36,375 nt of DNA from Candidatus Cloacimonadota bacterium. GTDB taxonomy: Bacteria; Cloacimonadota; Cloacimonadia; Cloacimonadales; Cloacimonadaceae. Below the pieces are notes generated by a model. That model had not been told where the DNA came from and searched no databases. It worked only from the letters and a program-made list of their open reading frames with translations. Positions 1 through 34,088 of this stretch are shown in pieces (position 1 is the first letter of the stretch; each line of letters starts with the position of its first letter). The stretch is taken from contig JASKKR010000023.1 of NCBI GenBank assembly GCA_030154085.1, positions 1-36,375 of the forward strand. The letters are read 5' to 3'. The translations under genes were made by a program, and so were the position numbers.

Positions 1-752
1 GTCTAATATAGATTGTGAGTAACGAGGGATATCAGATGCCCTCAAACAACCTGAAAAACAATGAGTTGGAATTTACACCAACATTTGGGACTCAACACAA
101 AAATGATGCATTTCAGCTAAATTCTCATAAAATGCTCAGAGATTCTCACTCGTGAATTCTACAGATGGAATGTTCAACAGTCTTGACAAGCTTATCTGAG
201 ACGCAGCGACCTGATTCTGGGTATCCTTTTTTCAGCCAATTCAGTGATACCGTTTGCCCCGGCTCTAAGTCCTTGCAAAAGTAGGGCACTTGATGCCTCC
301 CCCGTTTCTCTCCCCTTTGAGAAGTGAGCAAGAAACGGGATAATAAGGAGTTACGGCTTTGTGAAGTGCGTTCTGATGAGCACTCATTGGTGGGAGAAGT
401 ATTCTGCTTTTTCCACGATTAGTTTATAACTGATAGCAAAGCTATATTCTGCATCTATCTTGTCCAATAATTAGTTACATATATTTATTGGTATTATCTT
501 AGGCAAAGTCCCAAAGGTTAAAGACCTTTGTGTAATTTCCTGAAGCAGCACGTTAAAGTAGTCTATTTTGTCTGTTCTCAAGAAAAACTTCATCAAGGTG
601 ATAGTGTAATACAAAGTATAGCTATAAAATTAGTCAAGAACTACTTGTAAATATCATAACTTTATTTTTAGGATCGCTGTCTTTAAAGGCAGACGGTCGG
701 AGGATAATCTGTGTGCAAAGGTCTTCCTCATTGAGGGCGACAATTCGCCGAT
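1..752. other. Intergenic region with no supported gene
   Basis: No reading frame here looks like a real protein. The stretch is AT-rich and holds one copy of the dispersed palindromic repeat (272-367). It also has a small 7-bp hairpin at 512-530 (arms CAAAGGT and ACCTTTG). A 61-codon minus-strand frame at 146-331 runs through the repeat and is not considered coding. The gene to the left of the window is not visible. Confidence 0.6.
272..367 (+). repeat. Dispersed palindromic repeat, copy 1
   Basis: This 96-bp unit recurs at 17314-17411 in the same orientation and at 33068-33163 inverted. The core is an inverted repeat with a left arm starting CCCGTTTCT at 301 and a right arm ending AGAAACGGG at 339. 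It is followed by the conserved block AATAAGGAGTTAC. The left flank CTTGCAAAAGTAGGGCA is identical to the inverted copy 3. By eye, copy 1 and copy 3 agree at roughly 85% of positions. The stem in this copy is imperfect beyond the first nine pairs. Confidence 0.85.
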
Positions 753-15604: not shown

Positions 15605-16540
15605 ATGGGTAAGTTCAGAGTGTTTACTTATTACTTTAAATTGCAGGCTCGCAGAATACACAGAAGGGTAGTAGAGATGGGAGGATATCCCATTTTAAAT
15701 TATCTTGCTATTCTAGCTGGCTTTCTGGTCGTATCGTTAATTTTATACTATTTTTCCGATGCTTTCATGCTAAGCTATATGCTTGTTGCATTGCTAGTCA
15801 TTACCCGACTTAGCAGTAAAAAATATAACGATTTCCTGAAACTAACATTTTCAACTGCAGATTATTATAAAATACGATTGGCAGAAAATCTAATATCTGC
15901 TCTTCCTTTCTTATTATTTCTATGTGCTGTAGGAGATTTCCAATTGGGACTTGCGATATTGATATCGTCAGCGCTTCTCGTTTTTATCCAATTTAGAGTG
16001 AAGTGGCAGATTGTTATTCCAACTCCTTTCTCCAAGTATCCATTTGAGTTCATAGTGGGGTTCAGAGTCTCATTTATTGTTTTTGCTCTTGCCTATTTTC
16101 TGACCTATATATCCATACGTTATACCAATTTTGGCATAGGTATTTTTGCTTTATTGATCGTGCCAATCGTTTGCACCATGTTCTATTTCAAGGTAGAGGA
16201 TGTTTTTTATGTATGGATTTTTTCATCTAACGCAAAGAGATTCCTGATTGATAAAGTAAAGATTGCTTTTTTTTGCTTATTTCTCTTATGTTTACCTATA
16301 GTTATAACTTTATCTATTAGCTACCCAACTAAAATTCCCATCATACTTATATGTCAGATCATAGGACTTGGTCTGATTTGTGCCAGTGTATTAGCTAAAT
16401 ACTCATCTTTCCCCAATGAAATAGGCAAACGTGAGGGGCTACTTGTTTTATTCTCTATCATATGGCCAATATTGCTTTTTTTCACAATACCATATTTGTT
16501 CAAACGCTCCATAAGAAGTTTAGAAGGAATATTAGGATGA
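15605..16540 (+). CDS. Putative ABC-2 type transporter permease
   Basis: The 311-residue protein is strongly hydrophobic, with about eight or nine predicted membrane spans spread over residues 28-300 and a short basic N-terminus (KLQARRIHRRV). I do not recognise the exact family. It is called a permease because its stop overlaps the start of an ABC ATPase (ATGA, 16537-16540), the usual coupling of a two-gene exporter. The substrate is unknown. The coding sequence is much more AT-rich than the flanking operons. No good ribosome site precedes ATG 15605. An ATG at 15677 has AGAAGG upstream, but that start would drop the family-like N-terminus. The gene is bounded upstream in frame by a TAA at 15596. 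Confidence 0.75.
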   Translation: MGKFRVFTYYFKLQARRIHRRVVEMGGYPILNYLAILAGFLVVSLILYYFSDAFMLSYMLVALLVITRLSSKKYNDFLKLTFSTADYYKIRLAENLISALPFLLFLCAVGDFQLGLAILISSALLVFIQFRVKWQIVIPTPFSKYPFEFIVGFRVSFIVFALAYFLTYISIRYTNFGIGIFALLIVPIVCTMFYFKVEDVFYVWIFSSNAKRFLIDKVKIAFFCLFLLCLPIVITLSISYPTKIPIILICQIIGLGLICASVLAKYSSFPNEIGKREGLLVLFSIIWPILLFFTIPYLFKRSIRSLEGILG

Positions 16541-17217
16541 TTAATATCAAAAACTTAAATAAAACTTACGGTTTTGTTCACGCTTTGAGAGATGTAAATC
16601 TACACATTCAAGATGGCTATGTATATGGTGTTGTTGGGAGTAACGGGGCGGGCAAAACTACTTTATTTGAATGTATTGCAGGTCTTATAAATTATTCAGG
16701 AAGTATTGAGTTTACGGGAAATAACATTAAAAACCAAATGGGCTTTTTGCATACTGAGCCCTATTTCCCTTCTCTAATCACTGGTCGGGAATATCTGCAA
16801 TTAATATGCAATGCAAGGAAGTTAAAATCCGTTGATTTTGACGAAACCAATATATTCGAATTGCCCTTGAATAGTTATGTCTCAACTTATTCAACTGGGA
16901 TGAAAAAGAAAATAGCTTTAACAGGAATTTTGTTACAAAAAAACCAAGTATATATTTTGGATGAACCGTTTAATGGAATAGATGTCCAAAGTAATATGCT
17001 GGTTACGGAAATTTTACTGCGACTGAAAGCCAAGAAAAAGACGATGATTATATCATCTCACATATTATCGACTCTTAGCGAAGTATGTGATTATTATGTA
17101 GTGTTGAAAGATGGTAAAATTGATAAAAATGTGAATAAGGAAGCTTTTCAGGATATAGAAAAAGAGATACGTCGTGCAGAAATAGGCAATAAAATCGAAA
17201 AACTTAAATTGGGATAA
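16537..17217 (+). CDS. ABC transporter ATP-binding protein
   Basis: A 226-residue ABC ATPase starting MINIKNLNKTYGF at ATG 16537, with AAGGA eight bases upstream. A longer frame from 16462 would run deep into the permease gene and is rejected. Walker A is GSNGAGKTT (residues 34-42), Walker B is VYILDEPFNGID and the switch His is in IISSH. The signature loop is YSTGMKKK, a variant of LSGGQ common in ABC-2 exporters. It would power export by the upstream permease. The AT-rich composition and plus-strand orientation inside a minus-strand region suggest an accessory, possibly transferred, pair. Confidence 0.9.
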   Translation: MINIKNLNKTYGFVHALRDVNLHIQDGYVYGVVGSNGAGKTTLFECIAGLINYSGSIEFTGNNIKNQMGFLHTEPYFPSLITGREYLQLICNARKLKSVDFDETNIFELPLNSYVSTYSTGMKKKIALTGILLQKNQVYILDEPFNGIDVQSNMLVTEILLRLKAKKKTMIISSHILSTLSEVCDYYVVLKDGKIDKNVNKEAFQDIEKEIRRAEIGNKIEKLKLG

Positions 17218-17313
17218 AACACAAAGCTGCCCCCTCTGATTCTATTGCTATATGATGTTGCACTTTTCTTTCGACAAGGGCTTTACTGAGATGTGAAATA
17301 ACATGTCTAAGTG

Positions 17314-17411
17314 CTTGAAAAAGTATCACACTTCATGCCTTCCCCGTTTCTTGCCCATTTGAGAAGTGAGCAAGAAACGGGAAAATAAGGAGTTACAGCG
17401 TTGGGAAAGTA
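17314..17411 (+). repeat. Dispersed palindromic repeat, copy 2
   Basis: Same element as at 272-367. The core is a 15-bp inverted repeat, CCCGTTTCTTGCCCA (17343-17357) against TGAGCAAGAAACGGG (17367-17381), with 14 of 15 pairs and a 9-base loop. The AATAAGGAGTTACAGCG block follows. This copy lies between the convergent ends of the ABC ATPase gene and rsmD. The left flank is more diverged than in copies 1 and 3. Confidence 0.85.
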
Positions 17412-17446
17412 GATTGCAGCACAGAATTCTGACTGCAGGACCGGAC

Positions 17447-18001
17447 TCAGCTCTGGATTACTGGATTTGCACTTAGCCAAGTGATAGAGCAAATATGCCC
17501 TTCTTTCTCTTTAAAAATGTGTTTATCAAAGATAGGATCTATCTTTTCTTTCCTGGAATGTTCAGCCACGATCACGGCATCGTCTGCCATGATCCGACTT
17601 TCAAAAAGGATTTGTAGGGTAGGATTGATCAAGTTTTTGTCATAGGGAGGATCCAAAAAGATCACATCATATATTTGATTTGCACTTTTAATAAAGCTAT
17701 ACACCTTTTTACGATAGACATGACATTGATCCTGGCAACCAAGCAATTCGATATTACTAATGAGGGTAGCGATCGCAGGGGCAGCAAATTCGACAAAGTC
17801 TACCCAAGCAGCTCCCCGTGAAATCGCTTCCAGCCCAAAGGCTCCGGTTCCGGCATATAGATCCAGGACTCGCTTCTCAGCATATTCTTGATAAGTGGAA
17901 AAGATCATTTCCCGGTTGAAATCAGTGGTAGGTCTGGTACTTCTCCCCGGAACAGCGTGGAGTTTACGCTTTTTATGCTTCCCAGCAATAATTCGAATCA
18001 T
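17447..18001 (-). CDS. rsmD: 16S rRNA (guanine-N2)-methyltransferase RsmD
   Basis: The 184-residue SAM-dependent enzyme methylates G966 of 16S rRNA (E. coli numbering). The SAM-binding motif is VLDLYAGTGAFGLEA (about 45-59) and the catalytic motif is DPPY (117-120). The N-terminus MIRIIAGKHKKRKL with RPTTDFNREMIFS is typical of RsmD. Its ATG overlaps the stop of a small Cys-rich frame by four bases (ATGA), suggesting coupled translation. The 3' end faces the ABC ATPase gene. Confidence 0.93.
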   Translation of the reverse strand: MIRIIAGKHKKRKLHAVPGRSTRPTTDFNREMIFSTYQEYAEKRVLDLYAGTGAFGLEAISRGAAWVDFVEFAAPAIATLISNIELLGCQDQCHVYRKKVYSFIKSANQIYDVIFLDPPYDKNLINPTLQILFESRIMADDAVIVAEHSRKEKIDPIFDKHIFKEKEGHICSITWLSANPVIQS

Positions 18002-31467: not shown

Positions 31468-32628
31468 CTAATTAAGTTTTTTTATTCCTTCCCAGCTGCA
31501 GTCTTTGGTATTGAACCCAAAATGACCGTAAGCAGCAGTGGGACCATAGATCGCCTCTCGCAAACCAAGATATTCAATGATTCCCATTACTGTCAAGTCA
31601 AATTCTCGCTTGATCAAAGCCTCAATCTCAGAATCCGGTATTACTCCACTTCCGAAACTATCCACCATCACTGATACCGGACGGGTATCCCCGATCACAA
31701 AACTCATCTGGATCAGACATTCCTCTGCCAAGGAAGATGCCACGACACTCTTGGCAATATGCCGTGCCATGTAAGTTGCGCTACGGTCAACCTTGGTGGC
31801 ATCCTTACCAGAAAAAGCTCCACCGCCATGCTGTGCCCAACCACCATATGTATCCACAATGATCTTACGTCCCGTGAGTCCTGTATCCGCTGCAGGTCCG
31901 CCTTCTTCCCATTTTCCCAAAGGATTGATCATGATCTTGGGAGAGCTTACGTCAAATAGCATATCCTCTCCCATACTATGAATAGTGGGCTGCACAACCT
32001 GCTCGATGATGTTCATTTTCAGGTCTTCAAAATCCCGATCAGTAAGGGGTTGATGATTTGTGGAAATCACCACCGTGTTCAGTGCTACGGGTTTGCGTCC
32101 GGCATAGACGAAACTCACCTGACTTTTTGAATCCGGCAAAAGTCCGGGAATGCTACCATCTTTGCGAGCATGCGCAAGATTAATCAAAAGCTGATGCGCA
32201 ACTTCAATAGGAATCGGCATCAGGTACTTACTCTGCGAACAGGCATAGCCAAACATCAAACCTTGATCTCCAGCCCCTGTATTTTCCATGAGCTCCTTCT
32301 CCTGCTCATGTAGATAGTTTTGGATCTCACAATTGAAGTCAAAACCCTTTCCAGAATTGGTATAGCCAATCTTCTTGATCACTTCACGAACTACGGGCTC
32401 GACATCGATGATGCGCGAACTGCTGGTCTCACCAGAGAGAACCACCCTGTCCTTGGTGCATAGGGTCTCGCAAGCTACCTTGCTCTTCGGATCTTCTCTG
32501 AGATATGCATCCAAGATCGCATCAGAGATCTGATCGCATACTTTGTCGGGATGCCCTTCTGATACAGACTCTGAGGTGAAGATATATGTGTCATTCCCTC
32601 TTCTCGTCTGGGCGTGTAATGCTGTCAT
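31468..32628 (-). CDS. metK: S-adenosylmethionine synthetase
   Basis: A 386-residue MetK that makes SAM from methionine and ATP. Signatures are SEGHPDKVCDQISDAILDA (residues about 22-40), GAGDQGLMFGYA and GGGAFSGKDATKVDRSATY. The start has AAAGGAG eight bases upstream. It appears to be the first gene of a long minus-strand run that continues to the ComEA-like gene, with gaps of 8 bases or less or overlaps through most of it. The leader is short (about 60 bases after the tRNA-Lys terminator), leaving no room for a SAM riboswitch. Confidence 0.97.
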   Translation of the reverse strand: MTALHAQTRRGNDTYIFTSESVSEGHPDKVCDQISDAILDAYLREDPKSKVACETLCTKDRVVLSGETSSSRIIDVEPVVREVIKKIGYTNSGKGFDFNCEIQNYLHEQEKELMENTGAGDQGLMFGYACSQSKYLMPIPIEVAHQLLINLAHARKDGSIPGLLPDSKSQVSFVYAGRKPVALNTVVISTNHQPLTDRDFEDLKMNIIEQVVQPTIHSMGEDMLFDVSSPKIMINPLGKWEEGGPAADTGLTGRKIIVDTYGGWAQHGGGAFSGKDATKVDRSATYMARHIAKSVVASSLAEECLIQMSFVIGDTRPVSVMVDSFGSGVIPDSEIEALIKREFDLTVMGIIEYLGLREAIYGPTAAYGHFGFNTKDCSWEGIKKLN

Positions 32629-32944: not shown

Positions 32945-33067
32945 ACAAATCGAAAACAAGATTTTTTGATCTACTCTTTATGTCAAGATTTTTCGCTTGC
33001 TAAGCTCCACCCCTGAGGTTTATCTGCTCAATTCTTTCCATCCTACCCAAATTCACTTCCCAAATTT

Positions 33068-33163
33068 ACTTCACATCGCTGTAACTCCTTATTTTCTCGT
33101 TTCTTGCTCACTTCTCAAATGAGCGAGAAACGGGGGAGAAAGCAAATGCCCTACTTTTGCAAG
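33068..33163 (-). repeat. Dispersed palindromic repeat, copy 3 (inverted)
   Basis: This copy is in reverse orientation to copies 1 and 2. The core arms are CTCGTTTCTTGCTCA (33096-33110) and TGAGCGAGAAACGGG (33120-33134), pairing at 13 of 15 positions with a 9-base loop. Both outer flanks of copy 1 are conserved, including the TGTGAAGT end (here ACTTCACA at 33068-33075). The length, 96 bases, equals that of copy 1. Confidence 0.85.
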
Positions 33164-33488
33164 CATTTACAGCTCTATTTTAAAAGCTCTGTGCCAAGCC
33201 GATATTCTGTCCAATCTATCTATGCCATTTTGTCCGATCTCAACAAGCTGAAAAAACACGGAATAAACGGAATAGAATGCAAAAAATTATATCTCAAGGA
33301 TAGTGGATGAGCAAGAAGTGTCTCTTTGTATTCACATATATTACTGGTTTTGGATAATAAAGAATACACATTCGCTTAGCTAAAGAAAACACAGAACAAC
33401 CAGTTTAGCCTTTTATGAAATTCGTATCATATTGATATAATTATAGATATAAGGTTCATTAAAAATTTTATTGCGCTTTTGCCAACTT

Positions 33489-33575: not shown

Positions 33576-34088
33576 ATGGGAACTCAACAAATTCTACTCA
33601 TTGTACTTAGTGTCATCATCGTCGGTGCCGCAATCGCCGTAGGTATCCAAATGTTTAATAACCAGGCATACAGTGCCAATAAGACTGCTATTGCCGCAGA
33701 CGCCCAAGGCTTCGCATCACAAATCGTTCAATATTACAAAACCCCGGAATCCCAAGGCGGCCTGGGAGGTGATTTTTACGTTGGTGGCAATGATAGTAAT
33801 AGTGGCACTCTCGTTACTGATGCAAATATTGGTTCCTTTATCGGTTGGGGTGGAGCGACAACAGACAATGATAATGGAGAATATGTCATAGGTCTTAAAG
33901 AAGACTCAGATGAAATATACGTTTACGGTCTTGGCAAAGAAGTTAGCGACAATAAAAAACCTGCAATAAAAACAACTATTACCTTCCCCGCTGGCACCAT
34001 TACTGCTAAAGTTGCTGATGTTGCCGCTGGTACTGCCCTAACAGTGACTGCCATAGAAGCTGCAATTAACCCCAGCACAGGCGGCTGA
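33576..34088 (+). CDS. Pilin-like protein, copy 1
   Basis: A 170-residue protein beginning MGTQQILLIVLSVIIVGAA, a hydrophobic helix (residues 4-27) like the N-terminus of type IV pilins and pseudopilins. A helical stretch with VQYYKTPESQGGLGG and a beta-rich C-terminal head follow. It lacks a basic leader and the usual mature Glu5. If prepilin peptidase cuts after Gly2, the leader is only two residues. A related copy lies at 34547-35032 and a broken one between. A PilC/GspF-like gene follows. It could be the main subunit of a pilus or pseudopilus; assembly is inferred. It is flanked by a sigma-54 type promoter and a strong terminator. Confidence 0.8.
   Translation: MGTQQILLIVLSVIIVGAAIAVGIQMFNNQAYSANKTAIAADAQGFASQIVQYYKTPESQGGLGGDFYVGGNDSNSGTLVTDANIGSFIGWGGATTDNDNGEYVIGLKEDSDEIYVYGLGKEVSDNKKPAIKTTITFPAGTITAKVADVAAGTALTVTAIEAAINPSTGG

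Follow-up and report, generated by a model that had tools for sequence, protein, structure and literature searches.

The window analysed here is the complete contig C15 (36,375 bp) of a 99.75%-complete Cloacimonadota genome, G000 (1,950,348 bp in 42 contigs), and it carries three copies of a palindromic, non-coding element of ∼110 bp, as delimited by a covariance-model profile. Copy 1 is situated downstream of the rpsG and rpoC genes; copy 2 resides between an ABC-transporter ATPase gene and rsmD; and copy 3 is located upstream of metK, before an unnamed open reading frame. The features are as follows:

264 to 380, + strand: copy 1 (139.6 bits)
301 to 339, + strand: copy 1 hairpin core, with an imperfect stem and a 9-nt loop
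342 to 354, + strand: conserved AATAAGGAGTTAC block of copy 1
16462 to 17217, + strand: ABC-transporter ATPase gene
17306 to 17422, + strand: copy 2 (122.8 bits)
17343 to 17381, + strand: copy 2 hairpin core, with 14 of 15 pairs formed
17384 to 17396, + strand: conserved AATAAGGAGTTAC block of copy 2
17447 to 18001, − strand: rsmD
31468 to 32628, − strand: metK
33055 to 33171, − strand: copy 3 (129.8 bits)
33081 to 33093, − strand: conserved AATAAGGAGTTAC block of copy 3
33096 to 33134, − strand: hairpin core of copy 3
33576 to 34088, + strand: unnamed open reading frame

A sequence-only reading had placed three copies at these sites, and its coordinates needed only small corrections. It had also described a 15-bp stem with a 9-base loop; the loop is as described, whereas the stem is not perfect, forming ∼11, ∼14, and ∼13 of its 15 pairs in copies 1, 2, and 3, respectively, as read from the sequence. 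Similarly, the block AATAAGGAGTTACAGCG, which it had called conserved, is intact in both copy 2 and copy 3, whereas copy 1 reads AATAAGGAGTTACGGCT. The window further holds two low-copy repeats: positions 657–727, downstream of copy 1, correspond to the left flank of another copy (C35:36889-37049) and are also found at C5:91399-91555, and positions 1–97 match C33:3376-3465, C35:1-88, C35:121285-121369, and C5:100219-100314.

Along the element, information content climbs steeply ∼77 bases ahead of the AATAAGGAGTTAC block and declines ∼32 bases past the block start, and the most conserved part is the middle, GCCTCCC-hairpin-AATAAGGAGTTAC. The left and right arms vary among the lower-scoring copies, each occurring in at least two forms. 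The stem is mostly invariant within G000, where one pair clearly covaries (68% paired, versus 59% when shuffled, with 36 C-A mismatches remaining). Moreover, the G000 copy C41:831 and the single copy in genome G009 have an entirely different stem in common, and the element of genome G010 has a third stem type with a similar tail. Compensatory stem change is thus seen both in the covarying pair and in the replacement of the whole stem in G009, C41:831, and G010. The outer arms, AATGC..CAAAAG and CTTTG..GCATT, can be paired by eye in the consensus, where a fold with RNA parameters pairs other bases, and no known structured RNA in Rfam 15 scored above its gathering score for the element. The structure in our covariance model, R1, is a weak one from RNAalifold that omits the obvious stem, so R1 scores rest mainly on sequence.

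Genome-wide, we detected 116 copies in G000, making the family larger than the three found by the sequence-only reading. These comprise (i) 114 copies from the covariance model, counted at E values of up to 0.01; (ii) one motif copy, C9:41038, cut by a contig end; and (iii) one copy, C35:4143-4207, from a sensitive profile search that covered seven contigs (764 kb), nine copy-free contigs, and those long parts of C8, C9, and C10 that lack copies. A 24-base motif, allowing up to 3 mismatches, matched G000 at 103 places (52 forward and 51 reverse), against 0 for the reversed control, so the family is not a product of chance, and BLAST gave at least 40 copies, with 40 of its 118 candidates scored. 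Within the 764 kb, the element is the sole repeat of depth 8 or more, besides one 35-bp stretch. The flanks of most copies are unrelated, while a minority of copies have 250–300 bp in common; the copies are therefore not simply parts of larger duplications. Neither of the two outcomes named beforehand as refuting the sequence-only reading (no further copies, or copies only within larger duplicated segments) was seen. An assembly artefact is ruled out by the unique flanks that most copies have inside contigs, although a copy is present within 300 bp of 11 contig ends.

The seven contigs hold 50 copies, and all 46 that have a called gene on both sides are intergenic, in tandem (21), convergent (13), and divergent (12) contexts; these counts come from a crude gene caller that overlooked the ABC gene next to copy 2, a gene recovered by a family search. 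Copies show no preferred orientation relative to the flanking genes, and neighbouring copies have the same orientation in 42 cases and opposite orientations in 40. No T-run of the kind that marks an intrinsic terminator follows the stem on either strand, as read from the sequence. Together with the gene contexts, this rules out a terminator or promoter role, and the proposal of a dispersed, orientation-free palindrome family rather than a set of terminators is supported. A link between orientation and replication, for which the earlier reading had proposed a check, was rejected: the strand of a copy does not follow local GC skew (counts, 14/10 and 11/15; P = 0.40). On contig C1, the GC skew switches from negative to positive at ∼120–160 kb, as at a replication origin.

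Dispersed bacterial palindromes are usually random or clustered. In G000, the 83 within-contig intervals between copies have a mean of 14,264 bp, a median of 13,023 bp, and a coefficient of variation (CV) of 0.283, and range from 7,026 to 24,824 bp. Among 5,000 uniform placements, the CV averaged 0.99 and never came down to that of the data; such placement predicts 36.5 gaps under 7 kb, whereas none was observed. A null in which copies on the seven contigs could occupy only intergenic DNA at least 120 bp long gave a CV of 0.80, versus an observed 0.277, with none of 20,000 runs as low (minimum, 0.46), and 12.7 gaps under 7 kb, versus 0 observed. Such strongly non-random spacing favours the idea that spacing matters. 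A lattice is ruled out by k-step variance ratios of 1.1–1.2, which, along with an adjacent-interval correlation of +0.23, describe a renewal process, and spacing without long-range phase points to local mutual exclusion, with no ruler. Saturated random sequential insertion with an exclusion of 10–11 kb gave mean intervals of 13.2–14.1 kb and quantiles similar to the data. Exclusion insertion over all contigs at the observed copy number, which is unsaturated, gave CVs of 0.36–0.53. This spread exceeds that of the data, which requires some of the genome to be refractory as well.

Nine contigs (185 kb) are copy-free, measuring 45.6, 41.8, 34.1, and 22.3 kb, with the other five at 10.4 kb or less, and C8 begins with 40.7 kb free of copies; the sensitive search of these contigs and of the C8 stretch found no copy. 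Tetranucleotide composition is partly or wholly unusual in C4, C17, C12, C14, and C18, not unusual in C6, C32, C21, and C29, and mostly ordinary in C8. Copy-free stretches of up to 45.6 kb indicate that a maximum spacing is not enforced. The regular spacing continues through the C1 region of GC-skew sign change. Each of the four shortest intervals has a poorly conserved copy at one end or both (P = 0.006 by permutation, with a cut-off chosen after looking), as would be expected under immunity if worn copies exclude less, whereas over all intervals the correlation between copy score and interval is nil (Spearman 0.05).

Nearest relatives (76 pairs) differ more per site in the arms (left, 0.135; right, 0.117) than in the core (0.050 and 0.033 for its two halves); the 3′ core half is thus ∼4 times less diverged than the left arm, and the core 3–4 times less than the arms. 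The core is mostly kept in copies with a degenerate left arm, and those with 40–60% matching left arms have 93% core identity. This persistence and low divergence suggest, from sequence comparison, maintenance after insertion. The singleton test points the opposite way to the nearest-relative test: the 38 singletons in 96 copies are Poisson-like, without a difference between core and arms (P = 0.52), in a comparison confounded by saturation at variable positions. All four gametes occur in 80% of common-variant site pairs, and association declines with distance, a shuffling of variants among copies that may reflect gene conversion or independent degeneracy.

Across 124 genomes of the phylum, the conserved-core pattern (up to 2 mismatches) matched 113 times in G000 and 23 times in G010, once in G009 (a true copy), once in G011, and 0–2 times in the rest, as in the reversed control, so that only two of the 124 genomes have the family in numbers. 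The G011 locus, C16:5088-8191, has 801 bp identical to G000:C38 and was therefore not counted as a relative; its contig was probably cross-binned from the window's species, judging by this identity. In G010, a model built from that genome (R2) gave 53 matches, or 48 after overlaps were merged, and close pairs are again depleted, with 0 versus 4.55 expected within 7 kb (P = 0.011), 1 versus 5.5 within 9 kb (P = 0.026), and 1 versus 7.9 within 15 kb (P = 0.003), under a null that used the lengths of the 42 copy-bearing contigs and a rounded genome size, allowed placement beyond intergenic DNA, and could be biased by assembly breaks at copies. Common to both genomes are local self-avoidance and a species-specific sequence in a shared frame. 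Conserved positions between them are not supported, an orthologous neighbour gene lying on the same side of the copy at 4 of 13 loci, near chance. The motif had no exact match in IMG/VR, no blastn match in phages or plasmids, and no match in a broader genome-contig collection, which may lack near records. A search of that collection with the RsmD protein gave four loci, in Cloacimonadota MAGs only (best identity, 66%). Other palindromes occur in the group: in G017, from another genus of the family, an unrelated and almost perfect palindrome of ∼80 bp is present in ∼25 copies, and G020 (a single contig of 2,246,820 bp) has the palindrome TCCCATATCGCGATATGGGA at 13 places, including G020:C1, in a wide, uneven spread, with several other repeat families in its first 400 kb.

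The sequence-only reading had offered a MITE- or REP-like family or a chromosome-organising site, a proposal that our analyses support in part, with mixed results. A scan for target-site duplications of 2–12 bp, over up to 113 copies, gave no frame that stands out, and G000 has no match to the Y1 (RAYT) transposase family, PF01797. Among 12 genomes of the genus and 14 control genomes, the same search found this family in 7 and 5, respectively. With neither a target duplication nor a Y1 gene, the element is only a candidate member of the MITEs or REPs. G010 has two Y1-family genes, one of which, on G010:C68, is a truncated open reading frame ∼0.7 kb from an element copy.

As the best explanation we tentatively favour, at a confidence somewhat short of even, a miniature element built like a REPIN or MITE whose spread is limited by target immunity. 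Here, a miniature non-coding mobile element would have entered the G000 lineage and spread, landing between genes in either orientation; a putative protein bound to an existing copy would make ∼7–10 kb on each side refractory to a further copy; and repeated insertion under this exclusion would fill the accessible chromosome until copies lay ∼10–20 kb apart, with no global ruler. We infer that the element moves, that a protein binds it, and that immunity produces the spacing. By one assumption, and without an enzyme, immunity would cover both the local self-avoidance and the species-specific sequence in a common frame. Against it stand the missing target duplication and Y1 gene, the overly wide simulated CV, the seemingly maintained core, and the nil correlation of score with interval. 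Mu, Tn7, and Tn3-family elements show such immunity, an existing copy forbidding insertion nearby (available text of PMC3562280), but these elements are large and autonomous, each with a transposase of its own.

If the core were instead bound by a host protein (a nucleoid protein, gyrase, or condensin loader), selection might keep about one site per 10–20 kb, a distance that matches the size of supercoil domains, and surplus neighbours would disappear. This we consider doubtful. A selected site would explain the core conservation as well as the spacing, which stays regular where the C1 skew flips and recurs as close-pair depletion in G010, and it fits an element that has almost no rival among deep repeats; it would not explain the family's absence in numbers from 122 related genomes or the copy-free stretches of 34–46 kb, some with ordinary composition. 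Nor does it fit well with spacing that is not phase-coherent, positions not demonstrably common to G000 and G010, or singletons without core depletion, and the low core divergence could stem from gene conversion or shared ancestry. Slightly more doubtful is its fuller form, a lineage-specific, rapidly diverging organising site, in which the 110-bp palindrome, bound by a putative host protein at about one copy per 10–20 kb over most of the chromosome, would mark domain borders; two Cloacimonadota species would have amplified it independently, each with its own stem. The matS sites of MatP are palindromic, and BIMEs are built of exchangeable modules. Like the element, matS sites are spaced on a scale of tens of kb (23 sites, ∼35 kb apart; available text of PMC6907758), but they are 13 bp long and confined to the terminus rather than genome-wide. 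The BIMEs of E. coli, intergenic palindromes proposed there as supercoil-domain barriers, form clusters of alternating units, whereas the element occurs singly, ∼14 kb apart.

An improbable alternative is that the copies are REP/REPIN relics, mobilised by a RAYT now lost, with the even spacing a by-product of selection against close repeats, e.g. through recombination. REPs and REPINs with RAYT, as in Pseudomonas and E. coli, resemble the element in being short, intergenic, lineage-specific imperfect hairpins at tens to hundreds of copies that encode no protein and show compensatory stem changes. The modular arms, the absent target duplication, and the Y1-family genes of G010 also agree. REPINs are, however, described as randomly distributed over extragenic space (PMC3116915, available text), whereas our copies avoid one another under both the uniform and the intergenic null, have little decay in the core, and reside in a genome without a Y1/RAYT gene. 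Very improbable is that the copies serve in packaging or transfer by a gene-transfer agent, or by a phage-like particle, taking ∼14-kb pieces of DNA; this matches the size scale and dispersal only, and the free orientation and the lack of matches among IMG/VR contigs and phage or plasmid records speak against it. RU-1 is also known as ERIC or IRU, and we know of no report of even spacing of RU/ERIC repeats. By description, not sequence, the element resembles these MITE-like enterobacterial repeats, which are of ∼100–130 bp and lie in many intergenic regions (RU-1, 127 bp; RU-3, 103 bp; PMC2759123, available text). No report of such a self-avoiding palindromic family was found in the open PMC literature, mostly at the level of titles and the starts of abstracts.

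With more than 100 mutually avoiding copies, a spacing rule can be read directly from the sequence. If target immunity is its cause, the copies would be a natural record of the reach of immunity; if selection is, they would be countable candidate domain borders in an uncultured phylum.
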